From Thioalkalivibrio nitratireducens DSM 14787 (GTDB taxonomy: Bacteria; Pseudomonadota; Gammaproteobacteria; Ectothiorhodospirales; Ectothiorhodospiraceae): a stretch of DNA of 64,000 bases. The stretch covers positions 2,542,001-2,606,000 of the forward strand of contig NC_019902.2 of assembly GCF_000321415.2 (NCBI RefSeq), in the 5' to 3' direction. Below the pieces are notes generated by a model, which did not search any database, had not been told where the DNA came from, and worked only from the letters and a program-made list of their open reading frames with translations. The position numbers were made by a program, and so were the translations under genes. Below, piece by piece: positions 40,835 to 58,604 of the stretch; within the stretch, counting starts at the first letter, position 1; every line of letters begins with the position of its first letter.

Positions 40835-40844
40835 CGCGGTCCGG

Positions 40845-42617: not shown

Positions 42618-42665
42618 GGCGATTCGACCTCCGATACACGCCGACGCCGCTGCGGGGCGGTCGGA

Positions 42666-42965
42666 TCAGGGAGCAAACCCGGAACGATCGACGAACGTTT
42701 CCGGAATCCGGTGCGTGAAGCTTTGCAGGTGACGCTCGTAGGCGCGTTCGGCCTCGGCGTCGCGCAGTGCCTGCGGATGGGGAGATTGCAGCGCCCCGCT
42801 GGCCTGCAGCTCCAGCCAGCCCCGGGTTTCTAGGCCGGGGGCCGGCGGCGGAATCACGACGGGCGCGCGGGAATCCGCCTCCGCCCACGCTCCCGGGGCC
42901 AGAAACACGCCCGCGCACAGGGCCAGTGCGGCCAGGGCCGTCGGGGTAGCGATTCGGTAGGACAT
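42666..42965 (-). CDS. DUF3613 domain protein, secreted
   Basis: A 99-residue protein with a signal peptide (ALAALALCAGVFLAPGAWA) and a DUF3613-like mature part (ETRGWLELQASGALQSPHPQ, then YERHLQSFTHRIPETF). Proteins of this family are found within tad loci and have no known function. The ATG at 42965 follows AAGAGGTGATCG. It sits between tadD and tadG. Confidence 0.8.
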   Translation of the reverse strand: MSYRIATPTALAALALCAGVFLAPGAWAEADSRAPVVIPPPAPGLETRGWLELQASGALQSPHPQALRDAEAERAYERHLQSFTHRIPETFVDRSGFAP

Positions 42966-43023
42966 CTCGATCACCTCTTCATTGCAGGGCGGGCGGAACG
43001 ACAGGCGGTTCGGCACAGGGACG

Positions 43024-43872: not shown

Positions 43873-44797
43873 CGCCCACCCCCATCAAGCCGCGTCCGAG
43901 GGCCATCAACCCGGGCGCCGCGAGAAACGCCAGCAGCGCCGGAAACAGGAAAACCATCATCACCACACTCATTTTCGCCGCCATCTTGCTGATTTTCTCC
44001 TGCGACCGCGTTTCCTGCCGGTCCAGGATCAGGTCGCTCAGCTTCTTCAGTGGCCCGCGCACCCCGCCCCCCTGCTGCACGAACTGGCGCAGGATCGGGG
44101 CGGCATCCTCGATCTCGGGCACCTGGAGCGCGTGCGACATCTCGTCGAGCGCCTCGGCGAGTTCCTGCCCGGCCTCGACCCTTTGCAGCACCAGCTCGAG
44201 TTCCTGCGCCGTGTCCGGCAGCAGCGTTCGGGCCTCGGTCGCAATCACCCGCAGCGCATGTTCCAGCGACAGCCCCGCTTCCAGCAGCAGGCGCAGCAAC
44301 TGCACGAACAACCCTGCCTCGTGCCCGATCCGGGCCTGGCGCCGTGCAGCCAGCACCCCCAGCACGCGCTTGGGCAGCAGCACTGCGAGAATGGTCACCA
44401 TAGCCAACCCGGCCAGCGGCCGCGCTTCCAGCTGGCCGGATGCCGAGAGCCACAGGAACCCGAGCAGCCCGACCGCGACCGGCAACACGTTCGCAACCGT
44501 CACGAAGACTCTGCGGTGCACCGGGCGCGGATACCCGGCCTGCGCCAGCAAGCGGCTGAGTTCGGCCGGGTCGAACGCCGGCGCCCGCTTGGATACGGCC
44601 GGGCGCATCCCGGTCGCCAGGCTACCCAACCGTGCCAATCCCTGGGCCGCCCCGCCCTGCCCTCGTACGCCGCCGATGCGTCGGCCGATCAGCTCGTCCT
44701 CGTGCACGCGCCGCACCAGTCCCCAGCCGAGCAGCCCGAGCGCGAACGCGACCAGTGCCAGCGACACCAGGGCCAACCACCATGCATCGACGTCCAC
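43865..44797 (-). CDS. tadC: TadC inner-membrane platform protein (GspF-like)
   Basis: A 310-residue integral membrane protein of the type II secretion F family. The F domain (FVQLLRLLLEAGLSLEHALR, ALDEMSHALQVPEIEDAAPI) and three to four membrane helices match TadC. With TadB it forms the membrane platform for the TadA motor. Gene order and 15-bp spacing to tadB are typical. Confidence 0.93.
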   Translation of the reverse strand: MDVDAWWLALVSLALVAFALGLLGWGLVRRVHEDELIGRRIGGVRGQGGAAQGLARLGSLATGMRPAVSKRAPAFDPAELSRLLAQAGYPRPVHRRVFVTVANVLPVAVGLLGFLWLSASGQLEARPLAGLAMVTILAVLLPKRVLGVLAARRQARIGHEAGLFVQLLRLLLEAGLSLEHALRVIATEARTLLPDTAQELELVLQRVEAGQELAEALDEMSHALQVPEIEDAAPILRQFVQQGGGVRGPLKKLSDLILDRQETRSQEKISKMAAKMSVVMMVFLFPALLAFLAAPGLMALGRGLMGVGDG

Positions 44798-44812
44798 GAT
44801 TCGCCTCCTGCG

Positions 44813-45700
44813 TCAAACGCTCTTGAGCATACGCCAGAGCAGAAATATGCCGAGCACCTGCCAGGCCGCGGCCCCGAACAGCACGATGCGCCCGGTCGGA
44901 TCGTCGAGCATCCATGCGTAGTAATCGGGATTCATCGCCACCATATACCCCGCGATCGCGATCGGGACCACGGCCAGCACGACCGCGCTCACGCGGGTCT
45001 CGCCGGTCAGCGCCCGCAGCTGGCGCCGGCTGCGGTCGCGCTGGCGCAGCACCGCGACAATGTTTTCGAACAATTCGGAGGCGCTGCCGCCGAACCGCTG
45101 GTTCACCTGCACGCCCAATGCGAGCAGCTGCAGCTCGCGGACGCGGTGCACCTGCGCGGTGGCCATCATCGCTTCGGTCATGCTGCCGCCGAGGTCGCCG
45201 GCGCGCAGCACGCGTTCCATCACGCCGCGCAAAGGCTCGCGAGACGACTCGACCGCGCTGCGCAGCGCGCCATCGATGCTGCGTCCGACGCGCAGGCCGC
45301 GGATCATGTGTTCCAGAAAGCCCGGCAACTGCTCGACGATCCGCGCGACCCGCCTGCGGTACTGCCACTGCAGCGCCCCGGCCACCAGGGCCGACACGGC
45401 GCCGACCCCCAGCAGAAAACCCAGCCAGCCGAGGTACAGCGAGGCGATCAGCCCCGCGGCGGCGGCGCCGAAGGCCAGCAGCAGCACGACCCCCGGACTC
45501 GCGTCGATCCCGGCGCGCTCGAAGTAGCGGCTGAGACGCCGCGGATTCGGAACGGTCTCGTGGGTCCGCAGCGCCAGTTCCGATACGCGCCTGGCGATCT
45601 GCTCCTCCTCCGCACGCTCGCGGCTGCGCCCGAGCAGCACCAGACCCACCGCGCCGAAGACCAGCGCGACGGCCAGCAGCATCGCCGCGGCCGGCGTCAT
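44813..45700 (-). CDS. tadB: TadB inner-membrane platform protein (GspF-like)
   Basis: A 295-residue type II secretion F-family membrane protein with N-terminal helix AAAMLLAVALVFGAVGLVLL, a central F domain (LPGFLEHMIRGLRVGRSIDG, FGGSASELFENIVAVLRQRD) and C-terminal helices. Partner of TadC. Confidence 0.93.
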   Translation of the reverse strand: MTPAAAMLLAVALVFGAVGLVLLGRSRERAEEEQIARRVSELALRTHETVPNPRRLSRYFERAGIDASPGVVLLLAFGAAAAGLIASLYLGWLGFLLGVGAVSALVAGALQWQYRRRVARIVEQLPGFLEHMIRGLRVGRSIDGALRSAVESSREPLRGVMERVLRAGDLGGSMTEAMMATAQVHRVRELQLLALGVQVNQRFGGSASELFENIVAVLRQRDRSRRQLRALTGETRVSAVVLAVVPIAIAGYMVAMNPDYYAWMLDDPTGRIVLFGAAAWQVLGIFLLWRMLKSV

Positions 45701-45742
45701 GGCCGCGCCCGCCTGCGGCGACCGCCGCGAACGATCACCGCG

Positions 45743-47020
45743 TCAGTGCATGACATCCGCATCACCGTAGTAGCCTTCCCGCAGCTTCGGAATCGACGGC
45801 CGCGTCGGCGACCGCACGAAACGGTTCTGCGCGCGATCGTAGCTGAACAGCGTGTTGGTCACGTATGCGCCTTCGCGCAGCTCGATCAGCTCGAGCACCT
45901 CGGAAATGCAGCGGCGTCCGCTCGGCAGCCGCACGATGTTGATGACCAGTTCGACCGCCGAGCCGATCATCTGCTTCTGGGTCAGTTCCGGGATGTGCCG
46001 GCCGGACAGGCCGAGCAGCGTCTCCAGCCGCAGCAGCGCCTCGATCGCGCCGTTGGCATGGACGGTGCTCATCGAGCCGTCGTGGCCGGTGTTCATCGCC
46101 TGCATCATGTCCAGCACTTCGTCGCCGCGCGACTCGCCGAGGATGATGCGGTCGGGCCGCATGCGGAGCGCGTTCTTGACCAGGTCCCGGGCGGTGACCT
46201 CGCCGTGCCCCTCGACGTTTGGCGGCCGGGTTTCCATCCGCACCACGTGGCTGTGGCCCAGCTGCAGCTCACCGGTGTCCTCGATCGTGACCACGCGTTC
46301 GGTCGGCCCGATGAAGCCGCTGAGTATGTTCAGCAGGGTCGTCTTGCCGGTGCCGGTGCCGCCGCTGATCAGGATGTTGCAGCGCCGGCGGACCGCAAGC
46401 CGGAAGAAATCCAGCATGGCCTCGTCGGCCGAGTGATAGGCGATCAGGTCGCTGCTGCGCAGCAGGTCGCTGCGGAACTTGCGCACCGAGATGCAGGGGC
46501 CGTCCAGCGCGACCGGCGGGATGACCGCGTTCACCCGGCTGCCGTCGGGCAGGCGCGCATCGACCATCGGGCTGGATTCGTCCAGGCGGCGCCCCAGCGG
46601 CGCCAGGATGCGGTGGATCACGCGGATCACGTGCGCATCGTCGATGAAGCGCAGGTCGGTTTCGGCCAGCCGTCCCTCGCGCTCGACGAAGATGTGCTGG
46701 GCACCGTTCACGAGGATCTCGGTCACGGTCGGATCGACCAGCAACACCTGCAGCGGGCCATAGCCCGTCAGCTCGTCGACCATCTCCTCGGTGAGCCGAT
46801 CGAGATCGTAGCGGGTGACCGCGAGCTGCTGGCTGGCGGCATAGGCCGCTACCTTTTCCTCGACGTACTTGCTGATCGACGATTTCACCCAGTCGCCCAG
46901 ATCGACGCCGTCCTCCTCGATCGCGTCGATCAGGTACCGGTGCAGCTGCAGCTTCAGAGACTGGTAGCTCTCCGACTGCTTCAGCGCGAAACTGTGGGAA
47001 AATCCTCCGAGCCGCATCAT
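45743..47020 (-). CDS. tadA: TadA/CpaF secretion ATPase
   Basis: A 425-residue hexameric ATPase driving Tad pilus assembly (type II/IV secretion ATPase family). Walker A is [16 protein letters not shown]; the Asp box, Walker B ([20 protein letters not shown]) and His box ([13 protein letters not shown]) follow. The N-terminal domain ([20 protein letters not shown]) is complete. It starts 7 bp after tadZ. Confidence 0.97.
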
Positions 47021-47027
47021 CGCACCC

Positions 47028-48218
47028 TCAACGTGATCCGTGGCTCAGCCCGATCAGCCGCGCCAACCCGCCGCGCCGTGCCGACCCGGTCTCGCCCAGC
47101 CGGCCGAGCACCTCCTCGACGGCCGCCGCATAGCGATCGCGGGGGGCGACCTCGAACACGCTGCGACCGAGGTTGGCGGCCCGCAAGCGCACTGCCGGGG
47201 CCGGGGGCAGTGCCGCGAGCAGCGGCAGATCGAAGGATTTCGCGAGAGCCGCCTGGTCGGGCGCCACTTTCGGCTCGTAGCGGTCGATCAGAAACCCCGC
47301 CAGCCGGTCCTGCAACCCCCAGTCCTTGATCAGACGCAGGCGTCTGAAGTTCTGATTGCAGCTCGGCACGCTCTGATCGACCAGCAACAGGATCTGCTCG
47401 GCATGCGACAGCAGCAGTTGCAGAAAGTCCGACGGCGGTACCCCGCTGAGGTTGAGCACGACGTGCGTGAAATGCTGCTTGAGCACCCCCAGGAGGAGGT
47501 AGATCTCGGCCGAGGTGACGTCCTCGATCCCGCCGGCCTCCTCGGGCATCGCGAGCAGCTTCAGCCCCGAGCCATGGGCCGGAAACGCGCTCTCGATCAG
47601 CGTCTGGTCCAGGCGCCGGAGGTTGCGTACCGCGTCCAGGAAGCTGAACGAACTCTCCAGACCGAGCAACTGCAGGCTGTCGCCCGGAGGCAGGCCGAGG
47701 TCGAGCAGCAGCACGCGCGCGCCCGCCACCCGCTGCTGCAGACCCAGCGCCAGGTGCTCGGCGAAAAAGGCGTTGCCCAGATCGGGACGGGCATTGAGCA
47801 CGGCGACGAATCGGCCATGATTGGCTGACACGGACTGGCCGGACGGCAACCGCTGCTGCAGGCGCCGCACCAGGCCCGTGAGCTCGGAGGTTCGCGCACC
47901 CGGGGTCAGGAAGTCCCGCGCCCCGGCACGCATCGCCGCCAGCACCAGGTCGCTGTCCATGCCGTCCCCCACCGCAACGACGCTGAGCATCGGCTTCGCG
48001 ACCAGAAGGCCTTCGATGAACGCGGTCATGCGGGCCGTGTTGGCCGGTTGCAGGCCGACGAACACGACCAGCGCGCCGGTCATGTCGACCAGATCCACCA
48101 CGTCTTCCAGCGGCCGGCCCTCCGCCGAAACGACCTCGCCAACCTGGGCGAGGCCCGCTTTCAGCCACTGCAGTTCGCGGTCACTCTCGAAAACCGCGAT
48201 AAAGTTCTGGCGTTCCAT
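47028..48218 (-). CDS. tadZ: TadZ/CpaE-like localisation protein
   Basis: A 396-residue protein with an N-terminal receiver-like domain (ALVVFVGLQPANTARMTAFI, GARDFLTPGARTSELTGLVR) and a C-terminal MinD/ParA-like ATPase fold (FVAVLNARPDLGNAFFAEHL, LLLDLGLPPGDSLQLLGLES). Walker A is degenerate (FVAVLNARPDLGNAF lacks the usual GKT), as in several TadZ proteins, so it may not hydrolyse ATP. TadZ positions the machine in the cell. The starts 48218 (MERQNF) and 48248 are both possible. Confidence 0.88.
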   Translation of the reverse strand: MERQNFIAVFESDRELQWLKAGLAQVGEVVSAEGRPLEDVVDLVDMTGALVVFVGLQPANTARMTAFIEGLLVAKPMLSVVAVGDGMDSDLVLAAMRAGARDFLTPGARTSELTGLVRRLQQRLPSGQSVSANHGRFVAVLNARPDLGNAFFAEHLALGLQQRVAGARVLLLDLGLPPGDSLQLLGLESSFSFLDAVRNLRRLDQTLIESAFPAHGSGLKLLAMPEEAGGIEDVTSAEIYLLLGVLKQHFTHVVLNLSGVPPSDFLQLLLSHAEQILLLVDQSVPSCNQNFRRLRLIKDWGLQDRLAGFLIDRYEPKVAPDQAALAKSFDLPLLAALPPAPAVRLRAANLGRSVFEVAPRDRYAAAVEEVLGRLGETGSARRGGLARLIGLSHGSR

Positions 48219-48238
48219 CGGTTGCCCACCCTGCGCCA

Positions 48239-49528
48239 TCAGTCCCAAAGCCCCATGCGTCTGCTGAAACTGCCATCCTCGAACAGGAACAGCTCGGCGA
48301 AACTCGGATCGTACTCGTGGAAATGGCGTCCGGGCAGCTCCGGAAGTTCGGCGTCGGCCGCCAGCGGGCGCACCAGCCGGGGGGTCACGATCATCAGCAG
48401 CTCGCGGTCCTCGGCCTCGAACCGTGATGACCGGAAAAAGGCGCCGAGCACGGGCAACGTGCCAAGACCGGGCAGCTTGTCGACGCTGGCGATGGTACTG
48501 GAACTAACCAGGCCGCTGAGAACGAAACTCTCGCCATCGGCCAGTGCCACGGTCGTATCGGTGCGCCGCACCCGCAGCGCCGGCACCGAGGTACCCTCGA
48601 GCCGGATGCCGGCCTGGAAGTCCAGCTCACTCACCTCGGGTGCGACCTTGAGCATGATCCGGTCGCGGTCGACCACGGTCGGCGTCAGCGACAGACGCAC
48701 ACCGAACTCCTTGAACTCGATGGTCACCGAGTCGCCCCTGCCGCTCGGCACCGGGATGGGAAACTCGCCGCCGGCGAGGAAACTCGCCTTCTGGCCACTG
48801 AGCGCCACCAGGCTGGGCTCGGCGAGCGTATAGGCGAAACCGCTGCCCTCGAGCGCGTTCAGCAAGGCGAGGAAATTGCGTCCGCCGCCGCCGTAGAAGA
48901 TGTTGAAACCGGCCTCCGGCGCGGTAATCCCCGGCGAGATGGTCCCGAAAGTGCCTGGACTGAACGTCTGGCCGCCCAGGACCTCGGGCGAACCGACCAG
49001 AAAATTGGACGACGCCCGCCGGCCGAGCAGCGAGATCCCGGCTTCACGCAACTTGTTCCGGCTCACCTCGACCAGCCGGATATCGGTCTGGACCTGCGCC
49101 GGAAGTTCGGCGCGCGCCTCGCGCGGGGGCACGCGTTCGTGCACCGCCACCGCGGCCGGACCGGCGACCATCAGGACCGACTTCACGGGATCCCGCGCGC
49201 AGCGGGTCCAGACCATCAGCGATGTCGTGCCGGCGCCGATACCCGTCAGCAGAAACCCATGGGTTCCGACCATTTGCACGTCGGCGACGTTCGGGTCGCC
49301 CACCGCGACCCGCTCGGCGGGTACCGGCAGCCGCAGGGATTGTTGCGCCCCGACCTGCAGATCCTGCACCCGCGGCAACGCCGGGGCCAGATCCGCGCAG
49401 CCAGCTTGCGCGGCCGCTGCCGCCGGCCACACCAGCGCCAGGGCACCGAGCAGCCCCACCATCCGGAAGATATGCCCGGCCTGGCGCGGCCGGGCGCGGC
49501 GGAATCGGTCGATCGTGTCGGTTCTCAT
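48239..49528 (-). CDS. rcpA: RcpA/CpaC outer-membrane secretin
   Basis: A 429-residue secretin for the Tad/Flp pilus. Signal peptide (LLGALALVWPAAAAAQAG) with a BON/N0-like start (QSLRLPVPAERVAVGDPNVA), then the secretin domain (VQTDIRLVEVSRNKLREAGI, GFAYTLAEPSLVALSGQKAS, LAGGEFPIPVPSGRGDSVTI, EFKEFGVRLSLTPTVVDRD). It forms the outer-membrane ring through which the pilus emerges. Confidence 0.95.
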   Translation of the reverse strand: MRTDTIDRFRRARPRQAGHIFRMVGLLGALALVWPAAAAAQAGCADLAPALPRVQDLQVGAQQSLRLPVPAERVAVGDPNVADVQMVGTHGFLLTGIGAGTTSLMVWTRCARDPVKSVLMVAGPAAVAVHERVPPREARAELPAQVQTDIRLVEVSRNKLREAGISLLGRRASSNFLVGSPEVLGGQTFSPGTFGTISPGITAPEAGFNIFYGGGGRNFLALLNALEGSGFAYTLAEPSLVALSGQKASFLAGGEFPIPVPSGRGDSVTIEFKEFGVRLSLTPTVVDRDRIMLKVAPEVSELDFQAGIRLEGTSVPALRVRRTDTTVALADGESFVLSGLVSSSTIASVDKLPGLGTLPVLGAFFRSSRFEAEDRELLMIVTPRLVRPLAADAELPELPGRHFHEYDPSFAELFLFEDGSFSRRMGLWD

Positions 49529-49552
49529 GCTCGCTCCACCATCGCTGGATGA

Positions 49553-50530
49553 TCAGGGTTGGATCTCGACGCTCTGTGTCCCGCGGTGCAGAATCACGCC
49601 GGGCCGGGGTTCGGGCGCAGGCCGCCGCGCAGGATCCGGCGGCGGCGACACGGCTGGCGGCAGCAACGCGTCGATGGTGGTGAAGCGCAGCGGTTCTTCT
49701 GCAACCGGCCGGGGCATCAGCGTGCCCAGCCCGACGACCGGCGCCGCGGCTTCGTCGACCGGGCCCGGATCCACGTCCACGTCCGCGGCCGCCACCGCCA
49801 GCCGCTCATCGGCGCCGTGCAGCGCCAGCCGCAGCGAGCCGGCGTTCGCGGCGAGCATCACCTTCGGTGCTTCGTCCTCTGGCACCGCGAGCACCGCCGT
49901 GCGGTTGCTGCGCCGCTGGCCGTCGCGCTCGCCGTCGGTGTCCTCGGCGGCACCGTCGGGGGGCAGATCCAGCCTCAGCTCATAGCTAAGCACCCGCAGA
50001 TCCGAGACGACCACCTGGGCCGATTCGCGCGCCGGGCCGGCGCGGGCACCGGTCTCCTTCAGGTAGAGCAGCAGATCGACATGATCGCCCGGCGCGATAT
50101 ATCCGCCCGCACCGACCACGTCGTCGACCGCGACCGCGAGCGCCCGCTCGCCGGGGCGCAGCGTCCGCGCGAGCTGGCTGGCCTTGAAGAACCGGGTGTC
50201 GAGCAGTGGCTCGCCTTCGCGCACGGGCAGCACCAGCAGCTTCCCGATCACCGCGTCGGGTTCGGAAAACGCGTGCGGCGGCCGCACCGACAGGCGTTCG
50301 ACGCGCAGGTCGTCGGGCCCGACGCGCGCGCCCGCCTGCAGATCGCGGGCAGCGAACAATACCTCGACCCGGGCGTCGTCCTCGACCGTCGGTTCCGGCG
50401 GCGGCGCCGGCTCGGCAGGCGGAGCCGCGACCGGCTCGGGCTGGCGCGAGAGCTGGTAACCCGCGATCCCCGCGATCACCGCGGCACCCAGCAGCAGGAT
50501 CGCGACCACCGTCATCAGCCGGCTGTTCAT
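49553..50530 (-). CDS. rcpC: RcpC/CpaB pilus assembly protein
   Basis: A 325-residue protein with one N-terminal transmembrane helix (TVVAILLLGAAVIAGIAGYQ), a Pro-rich segment, and a SAF-like domain (VEVLFAARDLQAGARVGPDD, LRPGERALAVAVDDVVGAGG, YIAPGDHVDLLLYL) characteristic of CpaB. It may bind peptidoglycan or prepare the secretin. First gene of the minus-strand tad operon; the tail is Pro/Arg-rich. Confidence 0.92.
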   Translation of the reverse strand: MNSRLMTVVAILLLGAAVIAGIAGYQLSRQPEPVAAPPAEPAPPPEPTVEDDARVEVLFAARDLQAGARVGPDDLRVERLSVRPPHAFSEPDAVIGKLLVLPVREGEPLLDTRFFKASQLARTLRPGERALAVAVDDVVGAGGYIAPGDHVDLLLYLKETGARAGPARESAQVVVSDLRVLSYELRLDLPPDGAAEDTDGERDGQRRSNRTAVLAVPEDEAPKVMLAANAGSLRLALHGADERLAVAAADVDVDPGPVDEAAAPVVGLGTLMPRPVAEEPLRFTTIDALLPPAVSPPPDPARRPAPEPRPGVILHRGTQSVEIQP

Positions 50531-50958
50531 CGCAGATTGCCTCGATGCAGAGGGCCTCTACCGCACCCAGGGCCGCGCAACGGCGCCGCCGCCGACCCAA
50601 ACCCCGAACCGCCGGCCATAGCATTGGTTAGCTTCACCGATCCCCCCGCTATCATTCGTTTCGGTACCTCTACCGGCTGGTATCAGGCCATGCCCGGCGC
50701 ATCCCGCCGACACCACCTGAACCCGCCGCGGAAGCCAAGCTACTGAGTACACGCACTTCCGGGTGCGGCAATGAGTGTTGCCTGTCCCCACTGCCATCGC
50801 AATAGTTGGAGTGGATTAACCCGATGGGAATATCGTCGAGTTCGTCCGGATTGAGTAATCTGTTCGTGGGGTTGCGGCCTGCAGCTCCGGGGCGTCGCCA
50901 GTGCGGGCTCCAAACTCGAGCGACAACTACAACGGTTGCATACACGGGAGATCCAGTC
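50531..50958. other. 428-bp divergent region between rcpC and flp
   Basis: It should hold the promoters of both tad transcripts. I see no confident sigma-70 pair and no sigma-54 box (TGGC-N7-TTGC). A GGGAGATCC ribosome site precedes flp. No gene is evident; the frame in line with flp is open to 50806, but the extension does not look like protein. Confidence 0.55.
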
Positions 50959-51141
50959 ATGTTCAAGCAAGCGATTATCGAGTTCTTTCGCGACGACGAA
51001 GGCGCCAGCGGTATCGAATACGCGCTGGTCGCCGCGATGGTGGCGCTGGCGATCGTCGCCTTCGTTCCGCAGGTCCGCGACGCCGTCACCGAGATCTTCA
51101 CGTCCATCGCCGATACGCTGTCCGAGTCTGTAGCAGAGTAG
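50959..51141 (+). CDS. flp: Flp type IVb pilin
   Basis: A 60-residue major pilin. A short leader MFKQAIIEFFRDDEGASG is followed by IEYALVAAMVALAIVAF, the Flp motif with Gly at the cut, Glu then Tyr, and a hydrophobic stem. The C-terminal region (DAVTEIFTSIADTLSESVAE) is typical. TadV would process it. It is divergent from the other tad genes and followed by tadV after 100 bp. Confidence 0.96.
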   Translation: MFKQAIIEFFRDDEGASGIEYALVAAMVALAIVAFVPQVRDAVTEIFTSIADTLSESVAE

Positions 51142-51241
51142 GCGGACTCGCGCCAGCCCGACACGGAACCCGGAGGGTCCCCGCCTTGATCCCCGGGCTC
51201 CCGGTGCCACGGAACGGCCCGCCGGCCGCGCGACGCAAGGC

Positions 51242-51745
51242 ATGATCGCGGTCGCGGCAGTCGCCTGGGCCGCGCTTTGCGGCTGGCTCGATCTGCATAC
51301 ACGGCGCCTTCCCAACGCACTCACGCTCGGCGCTGCCGGCGTGGGGGCGTTGGTTCTGTTGCTGCGTGGCGAGACGCTGCTGCATCAGGCATCGCCTGGT
51401 TCTGCATTGCTCGCGTTCGGCCTTGCGCTCGTCTTGACGCTGCCCGGCTACGCGCTCGGGCGGCTCGGGGCCGGCGACGTGAAGCTGCTCGCGGCGATGG
51501 CGCTACTCGGTGGTCTCACCGCGCTGCTCTGGGCCTTTGTCGTCGGCGCATTCGCGGCCGTGATCGTCTTCGCCGGCTGGTCGCTGTTCTGGCGCATCCA
51601 GTTCATGCCGTCGGTCTACCGCTGGGTATCCCGGGCCGGAGGGCCGGTCCCCGACCCGCGCACGGTGCGCATTCCTTTCGCCCCGGGGCTCGCGCTCGGC
51701 TTCGCGCTGTCGCTGCCGCTCGCGTCCCGGCTGGCCGCAGGCTAG
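51242..51745 (+). CDS. tadV: Prepilin peptidase TadV/CpaA
   Basis: A 167-residue inner-membrane aspartic protease that trims Flp and the pseudopilins. The two catalytic Asp residues are in CGWLDLHTRRLPN (D17) and GRLGAGDVKLL (about D78). Four to five membrane helices. Its stop codon overlaps that of the convergent C39 peptidase gene as CTAG, with no terminator between them. Confidence 0.94.
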   Translation: MIAVAAVAWAALCGWLDLHTRRLPNALTLGAAGVGALVLLLRGETLLHQASPGSALLAFGLALVLTLPGYALGRLGAGDVKLLAAMALLGGLTALLWAFVVGAFAAVIVFAGWSLFWRIQFMPSVYRWVSRAGGPVPDPRTVRIPFAPGLALGFALSLPLASRLAAG

Positions 51746-52320
51746 TCGTCCATGTCCGGCACGCCATCGCGCTGCGGCGATTGCCGCGCCGGAAACCAGT
51801 CCTCGTCCGCGACCGGCGGCGCCCGCAGCGCCTCTTCGCCCAGCGGCAGCCAGTCGGCCTCCGGCGCCGCGACGTAGAGCGCCCGTCCCTCCGCCCCGCG
51901 CGGCGCCCAGCGGCGGAGGAACTGCGACCGCGCAAGCCGCAGGTTGCCGCGCGCGGGATCCGCCAGCCAGACCCGCGCCGGGCCGATACCGCGCAGCACC
52001 GCGAAATGGCCGACGGCGGAAGCCCCCGGCAGGTGCAGCAGCGCCGGCCTTCCCGCGCGGCCGAGGCCGTCCCAGTCCAGCGCATAGCCGAACGCCCGCA
52101 GCCCGTACTGCGCGCAAACCTGCTGCAACTGGTCGAGACCGACCACCTTCCGCGTACCCAGGCGTTCGAGCACGTCGGCTTCGGTCACCGGCAGCGCGTG
52201 GACCTCGGCGAGCAGCGTGGCCAGCGCAGCCGCGCCGCAGGATTCCGGCCAGGACTGGCGCTGGACCCGTCGGAAATCCGCCGGCGGCCGCAGCAGCCGG
52301 TTCAGTACCGACCGCGGCAT
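51742..52320 (-). CDS. Stand-alone C39 double-glycine peptidase
   Basis: A 192-residue cysteine protease of the C39 family, which cuts after Gly-Gly in bacteriocin and peptide leaders. The catalytic set is visible: Q22 and C28 in RQSWPESCGAAALATLL, H105 in SAVGHFAVL and D121 in VWLADPARGNLRL. There is no signal peptide, no membrane helix and no fused ABC domain, so it should be a soluble cytosolic enzyme. In most peptide exporters this domain is fused to the ABC transporter. Last gene of an operon that starts with tolC; its start overlaps the preceding stop as TGATG. A peptide with a Gly-Gly leader lies in the same island (57773). Confidence 0.9.
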   Translation of the reverse strand: MPRSVLNRLLRPPADFRRVQRQSWPESCGAAALATLLAEVHALPVTEADVLERLGTRKVVGLDQLQQVCAQYGLRAFGYALDWDGLGRAGRPALLHLPGASAVGHFAVLRGIGPARVWLADPARGNLRLARSQFLRRWAPRGAEGRALYVAAPEADWLPLGEEALRAPPVADEDWFPARQSPQRDGVPDMDD

Positions 52321-52850
52321 CAGAACGCGCCGGCGATGCGGTTGTACGCCAGCGCCACCGCGACCAATCCGCCCAGCATGAGCAGCCAGAGCACCACCGC
52401 CCGCAGCGGCGGCTGCTGCGCGACGTCGAGCGGGATCAACAGCAGCAGCGCGAACATCGCGCCCGCGGCGACCAGCCCCAGCACCGGAACCGAACCCAGT
52501 GCCAGCGGAAGCATCGCGAGAATCACCGCGACGTGCAGACGCTGCCAGCCGCCGTGCCACGGGGTCAGTCCGCGCAGCAATAGCCAGAACACGCTCGGCA
52601 CCAGCAGCGCGACCAGCACTGCGGTGCGCACGGCCTCGAGCAGGCGCCCCGCGGCATCGTCGCGACCGACCAGCAGGCCGACCAGCACGTTGACCAGCAC
52701 GATGCCGAACAACAGCAGCCACCCGGCCAGGAGTTGCCCCAGGCCGTCGTCGAGGCTGCGCAGCGTGCTGCGCGGGCGTGTAACGAAAGCGAGCAACAGA
52801 CGCCAGGCCTCCCCGGCGGACGCCGAGGGCCGGAACGCGGTTTCAGTCAT
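52320..52850 (-). CDS. Yip1-like multi-spanning membrane protein
   Basis: A 176-residue protein with about five hydrophobic spans, for example QLLAGWLLLFGIVLVNVLVG, AVLVALLVPSVFWLLLRGL, VAVILAMLPLALGSVPVLGL and AVVLWLLMLGGLVAVALAYN. The arrangement and the N-terminal segment TRPRSTLRSLDDGLGQ resemble Yip1-domain proteins. YknW of Bacillus is such a protein and assists the YknXYZ MacAB-like transporter; the same set of neighbours is found here. The role, probably transporter assembly, is inferred. It overlaps the permease gene by 8 bp and the peptidase gene by one base. Confidence 0.72.
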   Translation of the reverse strand: MTETAFRPSASAGEAWRLLLAFVTRPRSTLRSLDDGLGQLLAGWLLLFGIVLVNVLVGLLVGRDDAAGRLLEAVRTAVLVALLVPSVFWLLLRGLTPWHGGWQRLHVAVILAMLPLALGSVPVLGLVAAGAMFALLLLIPLDVAQQPPLRAVVLWLLMLGGLVAVALAYNRIAGAF

Positions 52851-54069
52851 AACGAAGGGCCTCCATAGGGGACAGCGACGCCGCCTTGTGCGCCGGGTAA
52901 TAACCGAAGAAGCCGCCGATCGCGGCCGAGAACAGCAGCACGAGCAGCACCACGCCGGACTCCATCTGGCCCTGCCAGGGCAGCATCTGGTTGAGCAGCA
53001 CGATGCTGCCGGCGGCGAACAGCATGCCCAGAAAACCGCCGAGCAGCGTCAGCAATGCAGCCTCGCCGATGAACTGGATCCGGATCTGGCCGGCATTGGC
53101 GCCGACCGCGCGGCGGATACCGATCTCGCCGACCCGCTCGCTGACCGATGCCAGCATCACGTTCATCACGCCGATCCCGCCGACCACCAGGCTGACCGCG
53201 GCGATGCTGGCGAGCGTCCAGGTCATCGCGGCGGTCAGGCGGCCGGCGAGGCTGGCGATCTGCCCCATGTCGGTGACTGTGTAGATCGGGCCGCCGTGCG
53301 ACAGCGCGGTGTTCTTGGTCAGCAGGTAGAGTTCGATCGCCAGCGCGACCTCGTCCTTCGCCTCGCGCGAGACGGGCTGGACCATCAGGTACTGGACATG
53401 GCGCACGCCCGCGATCGACCGCTGCACGAAGCTGACCGGAGCGAACAGATCGCTGTCCTGACCCTGGCCGAGCGCGGCGTCGTCGCGGCGCGACAGCACG
53501 CCGACCACCTCGACCGACTGCCCCTGGAACCGCACCGTCTGGCCGACCGCCGGACGGTTGCCGAACAGCCGCTCCGCGAGTTCGGCTCCGAGCACCGCGA
53601 CCGGGGCACCGGCACGCTCGTCGGCAGCGGTCAACGGCCTGCCGATGTCGACCCGCAGGTCGCGCAGCCCGAGGTAGTCGGGCGTAGTACCGACCAGGCT
53701 TGCCACCGCCCGCCGGTCTCCGTAGCGGACCTCGCCCTGCAGCTGCGAGACCGGCGCGACGCGCAGGACCCCGGGAATCGAATTGCGCAGCCGCTCGGCA
53801 TCGCGCACGGTCAGGCTCTCGGCGATCAGCGGGTTGAAAAAGCTCGTCGGATCCTGCACGTTTCCCGGGGTCACGATCAGCAGGTCGGAGCCGAGCACGG
53901 CCACCTGCCCCTCGATGTAGGCACGGGCGCCGAAGCCGATCGCGAGCAGCGTGACGACCGCCCACACGCCGACCGCGATCCCCAGGATCGTCAGGCCGCT
54001 GCGGGTCTTGTGCTCGCGCAGCAACGCCATGGCGTCAGTCAGCACCGCCGGGATCCCGGATCCGCTCAT
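52843..54069 (-). CDS. MacB-like ABC transporter permease
   Basis: A 408-residue FtsX/MacB-fold permease. The N-terminal helix LTILGIAVGVWAVVTLLAIG is followed by a periplasmic MacB core domain of about 220 residues (LGSDLLIVTPGNVQDPTSFF, ERLFGNRPAVGQTVRFQGQS). Three C-terminal helices include WTLASIAAVSLVVGGIGVMN and VMLASVSERVGEIGIRRAVG. It has no ATPase of its own; that is encoded by the overlapping next gene. MacB-type permeases act on substrates already in the periplasm or on peptides, not as classical channels. The ATG overlaps the ATPase stop (TGATG). Confidence 0.92.
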   Translation of the reverse strand: MSGSGIPAVLTDAMALLREHKTRSGLTILGIAVGVWAVVTLLAIGFGARAYIEGQVAVLGSDLLIVTPGNVQDPTSFFNPLIAESLTVRDAERLRNSIPGVLRVAPVSQLQGEVRYGDRRAVASLVGTTPDYLGLRDLRVDIGRPLTAADERAGAPVAVLGAELAERLFGNRPAVGQTVRFQGQSVEVVGVLSRRDDAALGQGQDSDLFAPVSFVQRSIAGVRHVQYLMVQPVSREAKDEVALAIELYLLTKNTALSHGGPIYTVTDMGQIASLAGRLTAAMTWTLASIAAVSLVVGGIGVMNVMLASVSERVGEIGIRRAVGANAGQIRIQFIGEAALLTLLGGFLGMLFAAGSIVLLNQMLPWQGQMESGVVLLVLLFSAAIGGFFGYYPAHKAASLSPMEALRYD

Positions 54070-54833
54070 CACAATGCCCTCAGCATCTGACCGCCGGCCC
54101 TGTCCGCACCGGCGCTCGCCACCGGCCAGAGCTTCCCGGCGTCGAGACGGTAACAGCGTTCCGCCCGGGCCGCGAGGTCGTGGTCATGCGTCACCAGGAT
54201 CACGGCCATCTGCGGCTCGCGCCTGCGTAGATCCCGGACGATCGACAAAACCTCCGCGCCGGTTTCCGGATCCAGATTGCCGGTGGGTTCGTCCAGCAGC
54301 AGGATCCGGGGCCGCGCCGCGAGCGCACGGGCGATCGCGACACGCTGCTGCTGCCCGCCCGAGAGCTGGCGCGGCCGATGCCCGGCATGCGCGGCAAGCC
54401 CGACCTGGGCGAGCGCTGCCTCCGCCCGGGTGCGCCGCTCGGCACGGCTGAGGTCGGCACGGTAATCCAGCGGCATCTCCACGTTGCGCAATGCGGTCAT
54501 GCGGTCGACCAGATGAAATCGCTGGAAAACGAAGCCCAGCGTGCGTCCCCGAAAGATGGACAGCGCCTCGTCGTCGAGCGTCTGAACCGAGCGGCCGCCA
54601 ACGATGACTTCGCCCCTGTCCGGCCGCTCGAGACACCCCAGCACGTGCAATAGCGTCGATTTTCCCGACCCGGAAGGCCCAATGATCGCGCTGTAATCGC
54701 CCGGCTGCACCGCCAGCGAAACCCCGCGCAGGGGTTCCACGCGGTGCCCGCCGACGGAGAAACCCTTGACGACATCGACCAGTTCGAGCACCGGACCCGG
54801 CGCGCGGTCACTCCCGGTAGAGGACGAGGACAT
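54069..54833 (-). CDS. ABC transporter ATPase (LolD/MacB type)
   Basis: A 254-residue ATPase: Walker [19 protein letters not shown]-loop [20 protein letters not shown], signature [17 protein letters not shown], Walker [14 protein letters not shown]-loop [10 protein letters not shown]. The [14 protein letters not shown] text is characteristic of the LolD/MacB group. The start at 54833 is selected because GGGAG lies at useful distance; starts at 54842 and 54878 are in frame. It overlaps the HlyD-like gene by 26 bp. Confidence 0.93.
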
Positions 54834-56016
54834 CGTCACCATGCTCCCACGCGTCGACCAGCGCGACCTGGGATTCATCCTGTACCCCGAGGCGCACCCC
54901 CACCGGATGCAATTCGCCTCGAGGTCCGGAGGTCCAGATCACGGCCTTGCCCGATGCGCGCAAGCGTTCGAGCTCGCCTTCGTGCCCCCGCAGCACCGCG
55001 GGATCGGGACGGTACAGCAGCGCTTTCAGCGGAATCACCGGCAACCGGCCCGAACGGCCCGTTTCGATCCGGGCCTGTGCGGACATCCCCGGGAACAGCT
55101 CGCGATCGGCGTTATCCACATTGACCACCACGTCGTACACGGTGATGCCGCCTTGCCGCTGCCCTCCGGCACGCACGCTGCGCACTTGGCCAGGAAACTC
55201 CCTGCCCGGAAAAGCCTCGACGGTAAATCGGACCGACTGCCCCGAAGCCACGCGCCCGATATCGGCCTCGTTCACTTCCAGCCGCAGCTCGAGAGCTTCG
55301 AGGCTCGGGGCCACCTCGAACAGCGGCTGGCCGCCGGCGGGCGACACCGGCTGCCCCGGTTCCGCGAACAGACTCAGCAGCACGCCGTCAATCGGGCTGG
55401 CGACCACGCTGCGCTGCAGGTTCTCGGCGGCGCGGTCGCGCCGGATTCGTGCCTGCTCGACGTGCGCCTCGGCAATCTCCAGCGCTGTCTCCAGTTCCTC
55501 CTGGTTCGCGACGGCCTGGTCGCGTTCGTCCCGCGGGATCAACCGTTCCCGGAGCAGGCGCTCCGAGCGCTCGCGTTCCTGCCGCGCGCGCTGCGCCCGG
55601 CCGCGCGCCGCCGCCGCATCTCCTTGAGCCGCCAGCCAGGCCGACTGGGCCTCCTCGAATGCCAGGCGTAGATCGGTGTCCTCGATCCGGACCAGCCAGG
55701 CGCCGGACCGAACGCGGTCATCGCCGGCCGCGACGCCGTCGGCCACTTCGGCCACGACCCCGGTAACCTGAGGATGCACCGCGATCTGACCCCGGGCGCG
55801 CAGGACTCCCTGCGCGCGAACCTCCAGCAGGAGATCGCTCTCGACTACCGGGGTTCCGGCTACGCCGTCGGGCAGCCGCGTACCGCTGGCCGGCAGCAGA
55901 ACCAGCACAAGCAGCACGACCCCGAGTCCGGCAGCGATGGCCGCCGCCCGCAGAGAAAATCCGCCGGTCCCCCAGAAGTTCAGGAGCCGGCGGTACCACG
56001 ATCCCGTCTGCAGCAT
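54808..56016 (-). CDS. HlyD/MacA-like periplasmic adaptor protein
   Basis: A 402-residue membrane fusion protein. One N-terminal membrane helix (AAIAAGLGVVLLVLVLLPAS) and a biotinyl-lipoyl half motif (GQIAVHPQVTGVVAEVADGV) lead into a coiled-coil hairpin of about 100 residues rich in Ala/Glu/Arg. The second lipoyl half follows (VVASPIDGVLLSLFAEPGQP), then a beta-barrel domain (GQSVRFTVEAFPGREFPGQV) and a C-terminal domain. It would link the permease to the TolC-like channel. The start at 56016 (MLQTGSWYRRLLNFWG) is based on the helix and on overlap with tolC further upstream. Confidence 0.9.
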   Translation of the reverse strand: MLQTGSWYRRLLNFWGTGGFSLRAAAIAAGLGVVLLVLVLLPASGTRLPDGVAGTPVVESDLLLEVRAQGVLRARGQIAVHPQVTGVVAEVADGVAAGDDRVRSGAWLVRIEDTDLRLAFEEAQSAWLAAQGDAAAARGRAQRARQERERSERLLRERLIPRDERDQAVANQEELETALEIAEAHVEQARIRRDRAAENLQRSVVASPIDGVLLSLFAEPGQPVSPAGGQPLFEVAPSLEALELRLEVNEADIGRVASGQSVRFTVEAFPGREFPGQVRSVRAGGQRQGGITVYDVVVNVDNADRELFPGMSAQARIETGRSGRLPVIPLKALLYRPDPAVLRGHEGELERLRASGKAVIWTSGPRGELHPVGVRLGVQDESQVALVDAWEHGDDVLVLYRE

Positions 56017-56032
56017 CGCAACTTCCCTGCGG

Positions 56033-57448
56033 TCAGAACGATCCCGCCGGACCATCATCATCCAAACCGCCGATCGCCCAATACAGGCGCACGATTGCCT
56101 GCTGGCGGTCAAACTCAGCTCCGACGGAACGTGCCGACGCCTCGCGGTACGCGGTCTCGGCCAGCGAGAGATCGTAGAAGGTTCGGATGCCTTCCCGGTA
56201 TCCGCTGCGCGCGAGCTGCAGATCAAGTTCAGCAGCGGCAAGGGCCTTGCGAGTGAGTTCGATCCGCTCCGACGCTTCCTGCAGGTCCTGCTGGGCATCG
56301 CGGATGTCGGTGACCACCTGCTGGCGCAGCGCCTGCGAGCGTTCCGATTCGGCGATCACTCGGGCACGCGCCTCGGAGACCCTGGCGCTCCGGAGCCCGC
56401 CATCGAAGACATCCCATCGCAGCTGCATGCCTACGGTGTAGTTGGGGGCGGTTCCGCCACTGGCAAACTTCTGGACGCTGTAATTGCCCGTAAGCTGCAG
56501 CGAGGGGTAGCGATCGGCCAGCAGTCGCCGCACCCGCTCGCGCTGCGCCGCGACCGCATGCGCCTGCCCCGCCAGCCGCGGATGCTGGTTCAGCGTGTCC
56601 TCATCCGGAAGCCGCTCGGCGAGGTCGGCCGGATCGATCATCCGGCTGTGCCCGGCGATGTCGAACTCGAATTCGCCAGGTTCGAGACCCATCGCCTGCC
56701 GCAAGCGCAGCATGTTGCCCTGAAGGTCGTTGCGCAGGCTCGTGACCTCCACCTCGGCGCGCGCAACATCGGCGTCGGCGCGCGCGATGTCGCCGGCACT
56801 CACACGCCCTGCCCGTTCCAGCCGCCGCGCCATTCGGGCAGCCTCGCGCAGGCGCGTCAACGACTCCTCCTGCACGTCCAGGAGCGCGCGCAGGTGCAGG
56901 ATCTCGAAATAATGCTGCGCGACCGTCAGCACCGTATCGACCTGCACGCTGTCGAGGGACGAATCCAGGGCCTGCCGGTCGCTCCGGGCCGCCGCGAGCC
57001 CGTGCTGGCGGCGGCCGAAATCGAGCAGCAGGTATTCGACGCTGACGGCTCCCACGTACCGCGTGAACCCGGAGAGGTCGCGCTCGGCCTCAGCCACCGG
57101 AACCTGCCCGAGCGACGGGTCGAGCACCGAAAAGTCCAGGAAGGGCCGAGCCTCGACCGGCGACGCCTGGTTCAGCGTCGTCCGCTCGCCGGAGGTGGTG
57201 ATCGAGACCGAAGGCCAGTAGGCCGATTCCTGCGCGCGCACCCGCGCATCGGCCGCTTCCAGATCCCACTTCGCTTCCCGAACCCCCGGGTTGTTTTCCA
57301 GTGCCCGAAGCACAACCTGTTCCAGATCGAGCACGGGCAGCCTGTCAGCCCCCGCAGAAGGCGCCGCCAGCGCCAGCATCAGCCAGGAAACGAGCACCAG
57401 GCCACAGGCCCCCACGGCCTGTTTGCCTCTTCGCGAATTCGGCACCAT
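56033..57448 (-). CDS. TolC-family outer-membrane channel
   Basis: A 471-residue outer-membrane efflux protein. A signal peptide (VLVSWLMLALAAPSAGA) precedes two OEP repeats with the typical helical pairs (EQVVLRALENNPGVREAKWD, ALDSSLDSVQVDTVLTVAQH; LQLTGNYSVQKFASGGTAPN, MQLRWDVFDGGLRSARVSEA). It starts the minus-strand operon and lies 16 bp upstream of the adaptor. Its own promoter should be in the 324-bp divergent region shared with the peptide gene. Confidence 0.92.
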   Translation of the reverse strand: MVPNSRRGKQAVGACGLVLVSWLMLALAAPSAGADRLPVLDLEQVVLRALENNPGVREAKWDLEAADARVRAQESAYWPSVSITTSGERTTLNQASPVEARPFLDFSVLDPSLGQVPVAEAERDLSGFTRYVGAVSVEYLLLDFGRRQHGLAAARSDRQALDSSLDSVQVDTVLTVAQHYFEILHLRALLDVQEESLTRLREAARMARRLERAGRVSAGDIARADADVARAEVEVTSLRNDLQGNMLRLRQAMGLEPGEFEFDIAGHSRMIDPADLAERLPDEDTLNQHPRLAGQAHAVAAQRERVRRLLADRYPSLQLTGNYSVQKFASGGTAPNYTVGMQLRWDVFDGGLRSARVSEARARVIAESERSQALRQQVVTDIRDAQQDLQEASERIELTRKALAAAELDLQLARSGYREGIRTFYDLSLAETAYREASARSVGAEFDRQQAIVRLYWAIGGLDDDGPAGSF

Positions 57449-57634
57449 ACCAGTTCACCCCTGCAAGTATTGTTGCTTGCACATCGTCAGCGTGCGTTTC
57501 GGCTCGGCTCGCGCAGGCGAACCAAGATGCAGCGAAACAGCGGTTGGATGGAATCGACGCGTCAAGGGTCCGCCGACATCCCGCATGACCAGTCCGCACC
57601 ATGCGCTGAAGCATCGCAGGGATACTGCCCTTTT

Positions 57635-57660
57635 GTATATCGTACCTAGGTGCTATATAC
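57635..57660. promoter_or_regulatory. 26-bp palindrome, candidate operator of the peptide island
   Basis: GTATATCGTACCTAGGTG then CTATATAC reads GTATAT-NNN-ACCTAGGT-NNN-ATATAC, so 20 of 26 positions are symmetric around a perfect 8-bp core. It lies 20 bp upstream of the peptide -35 box, between the divergent tolC and peptide genes. Symmetry and position suggest a dimeric regulator; none is encoded in the island. Confidence 0.6.
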
Positions 57661-57680
57661 AAGTTACTTCCCACATATGG

Positions 57681-57710
57681 TTGACGGCTGAACAAAGCCC
57701 TTCCTAATAT
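57681..57710 (+). promoter_or_regulatory. Sigma-70 promoter of the double-glycine peptide gene
   Basis: TTGACG at 57681-57686 and TAATAT at 57705-57710, spaced 18 bp, close to the consensus TTGACA and TATAAT. The stretch is AT-rich in an otherwise GC-rich genome. It lies about 60 bp upstream of the peptide start codon. Confidence 0.65.
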
Positions 57711-57772
57711 TAATGGTGTCAGCTGGGCTGGCGTGGACAAACACCCAAAAATTCGATAGGAGCGCTACTCTC

Positions 57773-57970
57773 ATGATTCGTCAGTTGGATAGCCATGAAA
57801 TGAAACAAGCCCGCGGCGGCGCCGACGCCACCGTCAACCTGGGCGCCCTTGGTTCCATCACCGTAGACGCCGCCATGCCGGCGTTGGCCGCGATCGCCGC
57901 AGGCGTGAACGGCCTGCTGATCGGTGTCGTCAACGCACTCGGCGGCCTGCTCGGCCCGCTGCTGGCCTGA
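57773..57970 (+). CDS. 65-residue peptide with double-glycine leader (bacteriocin-like)
   Basis: The first 16 residues, MIRQLDSHEMKQARGG, fit the double-glycine leader pattern: Leu at -12, Asp at -11, Glu at -8, Met at -7, Ala at -4, Gly-Gly at -2/-1. The mature part would be 49 residues: ADATVNLGALGSITVDAAMP followed by ALAAIAAGVNGLLIGVVNAL and GGLLGPLLA. It is almost free of charge (two Asp, no Arg/Lys/Cys), hydrophobic and Gly/Ala/Leu-rich, like membrane-active peptides. GGAG lies 10 bases before the ATG. A promoter precedes it and a terminator follows. The C39 peptidase and transporter genes are divergent from it, which indicates processing and export. Whether it is toxin, signal or surface material is unknown. 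Confidence 0.85.
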   Translation: MIRQLDSHEMKQARGGADATVNLGALGSITVDAAMPALAAIAAGVNGLLIGVVNALGGLLGPLLA

Positions 57971-57977
57971 CCCACCC

Positions 57978-58058
57978 CAGCCGATCCGGCTACGGCCGGA
58001 TCGGCTGCCTCGGCAGCCTCTCTGTCGGCATCCGCCGAGAGGAAGGCTGCTGTTTTTT
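57978..58058 (+). terminator. Tandem hairpin terminator after the peptide gene
   Basis: AGCCGATCCGGC and GCCGGATCGGCT around TACG form a perfect 12-bp stem (57978-58005). A second hairpin (GCAGCCTCTC with GAGAGGAAGGCTGC) ends in TTTTTTT at 58052-58058, giving a Rho-independent terminator. Confidence 0.85.
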
Positions 58059-58188
58059 TCCGCCGCACGCCCGCAATTGCATGCTTCCCGCCCCGGGGTG
58101 ACCGGCGCAGTATGTCTTCCCTGGTGACATTCCGCCCCTGAGTGTGATCCGAATCACCCCCCCCGCTACCTAAAGGCACCAACACAAA

Positions 58189-58223
58189 CGGGGCCCGGAT
58201 GCCAACAACACATCCGGGCCCCG
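58189..58223 (-). terminator. Hairpin terminator after the second peptide gene
   Basis: CGGGGCCCGGAT and ATCCGGGCCCCG enclose an 11-base loop (perfect 12-bp stem). On the minus strand it is followed by TTTGTGTT, so it can end the leftward peptide transcript about 40 bp after its stop. Confidence 0.75.
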
Positions 58224-58263
58224 CGCCGAACTGCACCGGCAGTTCGGCTGGGCTACGGCGAAA

Positions 58264-58371
58264 TTACAGGAGACCGCCCAGCAGCCCGCCCCCCAGAAGG
58301 TTCCCAACAAGCGAAAGAACCGGCTGGAGCAGACCCAGAATCGGCCCTAAAAGGCCACCAAGAAGATCCAT
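58264..58371 (-). CDS. 35-residue hydrophobic peptide (LLGGLLG-type), no leader
   Basis: A small gene reading MDLLGGLLGPILGLLQPV, then LSLVGNLLGGGLLGGLL. One charged residue (Asp2). GGGAG lies 8 bases before the ATG at 58371; an ATG two codons earlier (58377) is in frame. It shares LGGLLGP(L/I)L with the C-terminal end of the peptide at 57773. There is no Gly-Gly leader of the usual length, although residues 5-6 are GG. A leftward AT-rich stretch with TATACA (58416-58411) could be its -10, and a strong hairpin follows the stop. No function known; perhaps a membrane-active peptide, an immunity peptide or a partner of the first peptide. Confidence 0.6.
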   Translation of the reverse strand: MDLLGGLLGPILGLLQPVLSLVGNLLGGGLLGGLL

Positions 58372-58604
58372 AATCATAACTCCCGAAACGTGATGTGATG
58401 TGATGTACCATGTATACAGCGAGCAATAAGGAGCAACAGCAAAGCGCACCAACAACCCGCGATCAGGCAATTACCGGTAACGCCTTACGGGTATTCAAGG
58501 TAATCGCCCAAGCCACCAGACTCAATCATCCCTTGGCACTACTCGCTTCGAACTGCCTGCGCGCCGAACGCCACGAACCGGCTACGATCGGCTAGAATTC
58601 GGCC

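Follow-up and report, generated by a model that had tools for sequence, protein, structure and literature searches.

Which substrate does a MacB-type pump carry when it is encoded together with a stand-alone C39 peptidase and two very small hydrophobic peptides? This question is raised by a locus of Thioalkalivibrio nitratireducens DSM 14787, located in a stretch of 64,000 nucleotides (contig NC_019902.2, positions 2,542,001 to 2,606,000) that is referred to here as the window and in whose coordinates all positions are given. A preliminary description, made from the sequence alone, had interpreted the locus as a system for the export of membrane-active peptides, possibly combined with immunity. 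The present analysis shows that the gene set is real, conserved and rare, and that it is a variant of known peptide-export systems. Its probable role is the dedicated secretion of two small peptides that are anionic and strongly hydrophobic.

Organization of the exporter and peptide genes

The genes and sites at the core of the locus are the following:

56033-57448, minus strand: TolC-type outer membrane channel (Pfam OEP, 177 bits)
54808-56016, minus strand: HlyD/MacA-type periplasmic adaptor (Pfam HlyD_D23, 67 bits)
54069-54878, minus strand: separate ATPase subunit, MacB/LolD-like (Pfam ABC_tran, 115 bits); the true start may lie within this open reading frame (ORF)
52843-54072, minus strand: MacB-type permease without ATPase domain (Pfam MacB_PCD, 147 bits; FtsX, 58 bits)
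52320-52850, minus strand: five-helix integral membrane protein of 176 residues, labelled YIP (no Pfam Yip1 match)
51742-52320, minus strand: stand-alone C39 peptidase of 192 residues (Pfam PF03412, 54.7 bits)
57773-57970, plus strand: PEPA, 65 residues, divergent from the operon, with a double-glycine (GG) leader of 16 residues and a core of 49 residues
57773-57820, plus strand: GG leader of PEPA, MIRQLDSHEMKQARGG, with L-12, E-8, M-7, A-4, G-2 and G-1
57821-57970, plus strand: PEPA core of 49 residues plus stop codon; anionic, no Lys, Arg or Cys
58264-58371, minus strand: PEPB, leaderless Gly/Leu-rich peptide of 35 residues; likely start at the second ATG, 58371
57681-57710, plus strand: sigma-70-like site before PEPA, TTGACG-18-TAATAT, 9/12 (weak evidence)
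58188-58224, minus strand: terminator-like hairpin of 15 pairs after PEPB (sequence scan)

The six minus-strand genes from TolC to C39 form one close-packed operon. The TolC and HlyD genes are separated by 16 bp, the ATPase and permease genes meet in GTGATG, the permease and YIP genes overlap by 8 bp, and the junction between YIP and C39 is TGATG. Coordinates, Pfam matches and tight junctions agree with the six overlapping or closely spaced genes reported initially. The features of a tripartite MacAB-TolC-type pump are present, namely a permease with MacB_PCD and FtsX domains, a MacA/HlyD adaptor and an outer membrane channel. Permease and ATPase are not fused as in MacB proper, since the ATPase is an ORF of its own; jointly they correspond to one MacB that is divided between two chains. 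The same division is described for YknYZ, Spr0694-0695 and Legionella LitAI (PMC8277102, PMC11559062).

Conservation and properties of the peptides

The PEPA leader fits the GG rule of hydrophobic residues at positions -4, -7 and -12 (PMC10885120), position -4 being Ala in the window and Val in two orthologues. All four leader positions and the GG motif are in place, as the claim of a canonical leader required. A strict scan of short ORFs in six frames, which required all four positions of the leader, the GG motif and a Shine-Dalgarno-like sequence, retrieved a single ORF from the 64 kb window, which is PEPA, and one ORF each from loci L034 and L035, which are its orthologues. No ORF was retrieved from L057, L171, L161 or 10 block-shuffled windows. 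The second hydrophobic peptide noted beside PEPA is likewise conserved, and the 35-residue length of PEPB that follows from the second ATG matches that of two relatives.

Exporter, C39, PEPA and PEPB are syntenic in three genomes, those of the window (G000) and of two members of the same genus (G026 and G012), with permeases 63% identical. All six genes thus occur together with a GG peptide and a second peptide, which is the conserved synteny that had been proposed as a check. Identity to the window amounts to 67% (G026) and 65% (G012) for PEPA, and to 83% and 74% for PEPB. The ratio of non-synonymous to synonymous substitution rates (dN/dS) between G026 and G012 is about 0.19 for PEPA and about 0.30 for PEPB. 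Two sister genomes from another family, G130 and G253, differ in their two peptide genes by six synonymous and no non-synonymous substitutions, for which the probability under neutrality is about 0.0008. The small ORFs are kept in relatives and their divergence indicates selection at the protein level; by this comparison PEPA and PEPB are genuine genes.

Each of the nine mature peptides scored carries a net negative charge (-1 to -4), lacks Lys, Arg and Cys, and has a grand average of hydropathy between 1.2 and 1.6. Their helical hydrophobic moment exceeds that of shuffled sequences in every case (p at most 0.0124). GxxxG motifs number three to five in five PEPB-type peptides (p 0.03-0.16 versus composition). 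The second peptide of G130 and the three PEPA cores have one to two (p 0.29-0.55). A glycine-zipper spacing does not stand out clearly from composition in these numbers.

The regulatory sites named in the preliminary description fared unequally. Five terminator-like sites were found in the region, versus a mean of 1.4 in dinucleotide shuffles, and the 15-pair hairpin follows PEPB. One promoter-like site was found versus a mean of 0.4. This PEPA site is weak, as it is equalled by 13% of simple shuffles of the 140-bp upstream stretch, and a promoter common to the orthologues was not found, the two orthologous loci having no comparable site.

Exporter loci with leaderless peptides

In G130 (L057), two leaderless peptides precede an operon encoding TolC, HlyD, ATPase, permease and a membrane protein. 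The first is the PEPB of this genome, MLGLGDLLGGLLDTVLGLLGPVLGLVQGLLGSLLGGLLG, behind the Shine-Dalgarno sequence AAGGAGG; the second, MISASLNLEAILGSVISTVTGLVGHVLDLVGGLLGSVMTLV, is followed by an inverted repeat that is read as a terminator. G253 encodes the same two proteins on a contig that ends just past the ATPase, and in both genomes the pair sits directly upstream of TolC. Neither the C39 profile nor the strict GG scan gave a hit in the sequence read, which comprised 20 kb and 8 kb of G130 and the contig of G253. An apparent GG leader in their PEPB frame, with three of four positions and an upstream GTG, is spurious because the ATG behind AAGGAGG starts inside that 'leader'.

Transporter genes without a nearby GG peptide had been named as evidence that would speak against peptide export. 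Such loci do occur in the scanned stretches of G130 and G253, but they carry two leaderless hydrophobic peptides. Because the exporter is found there with a leaderless pair and without a GG peptide, the GG leader is not the feature around which the pump is organized. From the sequences, a leaderless peptide of the PEPB type looks like the constant partner of the pump, and the GG leader together with C39 looks like a module, a reading that rests on two lineages. A leaderless peptide gene beside ABC transporter genes, characteristic of leaderless bacteriocin clusters, is present both with PEPB and with the pair of G130 and G253. A single pump clade that is accompanied either by two leaderless peptides or by a leaderless peptide, a leadered peptide and a free protease offers a natural comparison. 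It makes testable whether a MacB-type pump exports hydrophobic peptides without a leader, and what leader and protease add.

The second G130 peptide was found by the PEPB profile and not by the PEPA profile. Its homology to the PEPA core, suggested by ATVNLGALGS and ASLNLEAILGS, was rejected against 2000 shuffles (fractions 0.0055, 0.153 and 0.4075 for three cores). A third PEPB-type peptide of G130, MFGLENLLGGILGLVTGLLDTVLGLVTGLLGGLLG (L162:9779-9886), is an orphan: the 20 kb read at this place gave no match to an exporter gene. It has a promoter-like site that scores 10/12. More distant paralogous pumps without such peptides alongside are present in G130 and G253 as well (L159, L160).

The C39 peptidase

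As initially described, C39 is separate from the transporter, and its stand-alone ORF is of the PCAT-peptidase type (PCAT, peptidase-containing ABC transporter). Residues Q22, C28, H105 and D121 are invariant in an alignment of the three orthologues, and we take their role from the C39 family. The best solved relatives in a profile search are GG-protease domains, 6mpz (E 3.2e-10) and PCAT1. The structural model, with a mean predicted local distance difference test score (pLDDT) of 68, a higher core and two low-scoring ends, matched PCAT1 (E 6e-8), ComA (9e-7) and 6mpz (2.9e-6) in Foldseek. No signal peptide is evident by inspection. C39 ORFs read in five other genomes (G092, G046, G058, G067 and G044) mostly start with a hydrophobic stretch, an extension that the three orthologues lack.

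The genome contains three C39 matches, and a fused peptidase-exporter with a catalytic Cys is not among them. As the other two are the N-domain of a type 1 ABC exporter, without Cys in the part of the domain inspected, and a lipoprotein-like protein, the window C39 appears to be the sole good candidate among the three for cutting the PEPA leader. Its cleavage of this leader is predicted on these grounds.

The five-helix membrane protein

The AlphaFold model of the YIP protein shows short N-terminal helices followed by five long helical segments (mean pLDDT 80; two of five models above 70). The preliminary description had called this protein Yip1-like and had drawn a parallel to YknW, neither of which finds support. 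The window protein has no Pfam Yip1 match, one of four orthologues matches at E 0.077, hhalign does not relate it to YohC of E. coli, a protein that Pfam recognizes as Yip1 with 123 bits, and Foldseek gives no match to solved structures. A Yip1-family subunit as in YknWXYZ is thus not recognized here by tests of limited sensitivity, and the five-helix topology is compatible with Yip1. Clusters for leaderless bacteriocins hold Yip1 and PH-domain membrane proteins whose role is unclear (PMC11580447). By analogy, the five-helix protein is possibly an accessory subunit or an immunity protein.

Relation to known systems

Class II microcin and PCAT export (CvaAB-TolC; the peptidase domains of LahT, PCAT1 and ComA) shares with the locus the GG leader, a C39 domain of PCAT-type fold with the Q/C/H/D residues, and HlyD and TolC partners. 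It differs in that the protease is separate here and the ABC part consists of a MacB-type permease and a separate ATPase; among the three C39 matches of the genome, none is a type 1 exporter whose fused peptidase domain has a catalytic Cys. To our knowledge, the known Gram-negative GG peptides exit via exporters with a fused peptidase. MacAB-TolC and its split relatives (YknXYZ, Spr0693-0695, LitOPAI) share the permease with PCD and FtsX, the MacA-like adaptor, the outer membrane channel where they are Gram-negative and, in YknYZ and LitAI, the separate ATPase chain, whereas C39, the five-helix protein and the small peptide genes are extra here.

The leaderless bacteriocins of whose description we know are Gram-positive. 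Their clusters resemble the locus in hydrophobic leaderless peptides beside ABC parts and a small multi-span protein (PMC11580447), but the pump here is a Gram-negative trans-envelope one, the peptides are anionic and Gly/Leu-rich, and the five-helix protein is not established as Yip1. Caulobacter Cdz likewise has a pair of small, hydrophobic, Gly-rich peptides, and its secretion genes include an ABC protein and a periplasmic adaptor (PMC5380434). In contrast, its exporter is of type I (CdzAB), the cluster contains no TolC gene, and the GxxxG spacing of the peptides studied here does not clearly exceed composition. FilB and FapD share the stand-alone C39, but the window C39 scores far under both curated NCBIfam cut-offs (FapD 37 versus 330 bits; FilB 45.6 versus 475 bits) and shows no N-terminal export signal by inspection. 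Among the papers listed on MacB-type pumps with C39 and GG peptides, on leaderless bacteriocins with MacB, Yip1 or TolC, on Tad pili with peptide toxins and on class II microcins, none was recognized as an account of the present gene set, as judged from titles and the starts of abstracts.

Proposed mode of export

The locus is best read, by analogy, as acting in the manner of leaderless or two-peptide bacteriocin or microcin systems, yet via a MacB-type pump. PEPB would be made without a leader, whereas PEPA would be made with its 16-residue GG leader, which the separate cytoplasmic C39 would cut off. The freed peptides would associate with the inner membrane, and permease, ATPase, HlyD/MacA adaptor and TolC would carry them from the inner membrane or periplasm outward in the manner of MacAB-TolC, with the five-helix protein serving as accessory or immunity protein. 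As MacAB-TolC is reported to take its substrate from the periplasm (PMC11559062), extraction of the peptides after partitioning into the inner membrane may be the simplest route. What we infer is that the leader is cleaved, that the peptides travel this way and are membrane-active, and that they serve in antagonism or in Tad-linked surface attachment. The peptide-export reading given initially is supported by synteny, selection and the unfused PCAT-type C39; its link to Yip1/YknW finds no support in the sequences, and the leaderless peptide rather than the GG peptide looks like the constant partner of the pump.

Several observations weigh against secretion of this kind. The peptides contain no Lys or Arg, whereas most bacteriocins do, and no recognized immunity gene was found at the locus. 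MacB-type pumps normally draw their substrate from the periplasm, a compartment that the peptides would first have to reach. Weaker matches of the C39 model include C39-like toxins as well as the HlyB domain, which is inactive, and the best NCBIfam matches below cut-off are FilB and FapD. The dN/dS values are well below 1 yet uneven: PEPA pairs range from 0.19 to 0.60 (highest G000/G026) and PEPB pairs, G130/G253 left aside, from 0.16 to 0.66 (highest G012/G253). For PEPB, none of the three genomes with linked Tad genes has a promoter-like site that surpasses shuffled sequence. The absence of C39 from G130 and G253 refers to the stretches read, the whole genomes not having been searched, and the evidence comes from five genomes in two lineages only.

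The Tad pilus neighborhood and alternative functions

The exporter adjoins genes for a Tad pilus, a linkage that the preliminary description did not contain:

40358-51745, mixed strands: Tad/Flp pilus locus, its last 4 bases overlapping the C39 stop
minus strand, in the Tad locus: TadE, TadG, DUF3613, TPR protein, two T2SSF proteins, T2SSE ATPase, secretin (CpaC), RcpC/CpaB
minus strand, in the Tad locus: ORF at the place of TadZ, no Pfam match
plus strand, in the Tad locus: Flp pilin and A24 peptidase (CpaA)
33901-40269, minus strand: LuxR-type response regulator, PAS/GAF sensor kinase and EAL/GGDEF response regulator

Counterparts of the Tad and regulator genes adjoin exporter and peptides in the same order in G026 and G012, with a shorter homologue of the EAL regulator and a LuxR-type gene that is reversed. 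The conserved block comprises about 24.5 kb in the window, and in each of the three genomes the C39 and cpaA genes converge tail-to-tail. At the PEPB end, PilS/PilR-type regulators are found in G000 and a type 1 secretion locus in G026 and G012 (L034:16481-19371, L168:1824-4640, L035:255-3748), with a BapA-like adhesin in G026. At E 1e-5, cpaA was detected in 3/30 genomes of the genus, which are exactly the exporter carriers and have it adjacent, with a single divergent query that could miss others; two independent sets of three among 30 would coincide by chance in 1 of 4060 cases. The exporter may be functionally linked to the Tad pilus, and the linkage is a concrete handle on function.

A tentative alternative is that the same processing and export serve extracellular matrix, surfactant or signalling peptides that aid Tad attachment or biofilm formation. 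The restriction of cpaA to the exporter carriers, the adjoining Tad genes and regulators in all three genomes, and the type 1 secretion locus and adhesin next to PEPB are in line with this, as is the requirement of Synechococcus biofilms for GG-motif proteins and a C39 transporter (PMC4997328). However, because cpaA and exporter are adjacent, their co-inheritance can be explained by joint transfer or loss through physical linkage alone, and neither Flp, CpaA, CpaB nor CpaC was matched in the 20 kb around the G130 exporter, the rest of that genome being unsearched.

Contact-dependent killing of prey by Myxococcus needs a Tad-like apparatus (PMC8460266). A bolder and doubtful extension of the secretion hypothesis is that the MacB-type pump represents a new trans-envelope class which would draw wholly hydrophobic, anionic peptides out of the inner membrane independently of any leader. 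Leader and free C39 would then be a detachable module that keeps one partner silent up to its processing, and one genus would deploy its peptides at the cell surface jointly with the Tad pilus, for adhesion or as a weapon that depends on contact.

It is unlikely that the pump provides detoxification or immunity against membrane peptides, like YknWXYZ against SDP, with the peptides being toxins secreted by another route. Separate permease and ATPase chains as in YknYZ (PMC4887032, PMC8277102) and a five-helix membrane protein within the operon would suit this function. The protein has no Yip1 match, no fused peptidase-exporter with catalytic Cys is among the three C39 matches of the genome, and a TolC-linked operon with its own peptidase suits export better. 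Least probable is an ordinary MacAB-TolC-type pump with bystander peptides and a C39 that serves another purpose, for example, as with FilB or FapD, a protein of a pilus or fibril. The sub-cutoff NCBIfam matches, the position of C39 next to cpaA and the peptide-free paralogous pumps of G130 and G253 fit this, but the peptides track this exporter clade over two lineages, PEPA and C39 co-occur, and the hydrophobic extension at the N-terminus of the other C39s read is missing from the three orthologues.

Distribution among genomes

The permease profile was matched in 3/47 genomes of the family, and the PEPA profile in the same three (window genome included). At E 1e-70 the permease was found in seven of 369 genomes of a class sample (window genome included); when the regions of the six others were read, G130 alone had the membrane protein and PEPB, and five had neither. 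A further class sample yielded 2/310 genomes, G130 and the distant G377, and a phylum sample 1/398, the window genome; these large searches scored no more than 4 or 5 candidates in each genome. The PEPB profile matched 4/258 class genomes (G000, G130, G253 and G125), of which the G125 match (E 0.009, inside a 683-residue frame) is probably due to chance. In a scan of named genomes, 80 loci among the matches listed contained generic MacB-type permeases, 30-39% identical, with no YIP, PEPA or PEPB profile match above 9 bits; one of them, L073, has a 40.7-bit C39 match inside an ORF of 1130 residues. Plasmids yielded two distant permeases and no PEPA.

Among 28 other genomes with C39 matches, extended regions were read in seven and short loci in the other 21. 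G026 and G012 match the arrangement; it was not matched in G092 (all seven places), G046, G058, G067 and G044, with second places of G046, G058 and G044 unread. The seven C39 places of G092 (L036-L041) are 34-41% identical to the window C39, mostly have signal-like N-termini and no exporter or peptide matches nearby, and possibly belong to an expanded FapD/FilB-like family. A search of 369 class genomes for PEPA returned the window genome and a weak match in G184 (L058:9768-10025), a distantly PEPA-like peptide with a GG leader (E 8e-4). This peptide adjoins a 724-residue ABC exporter (L058:11275-13449) whose N-terminus is C39-like in appearance.

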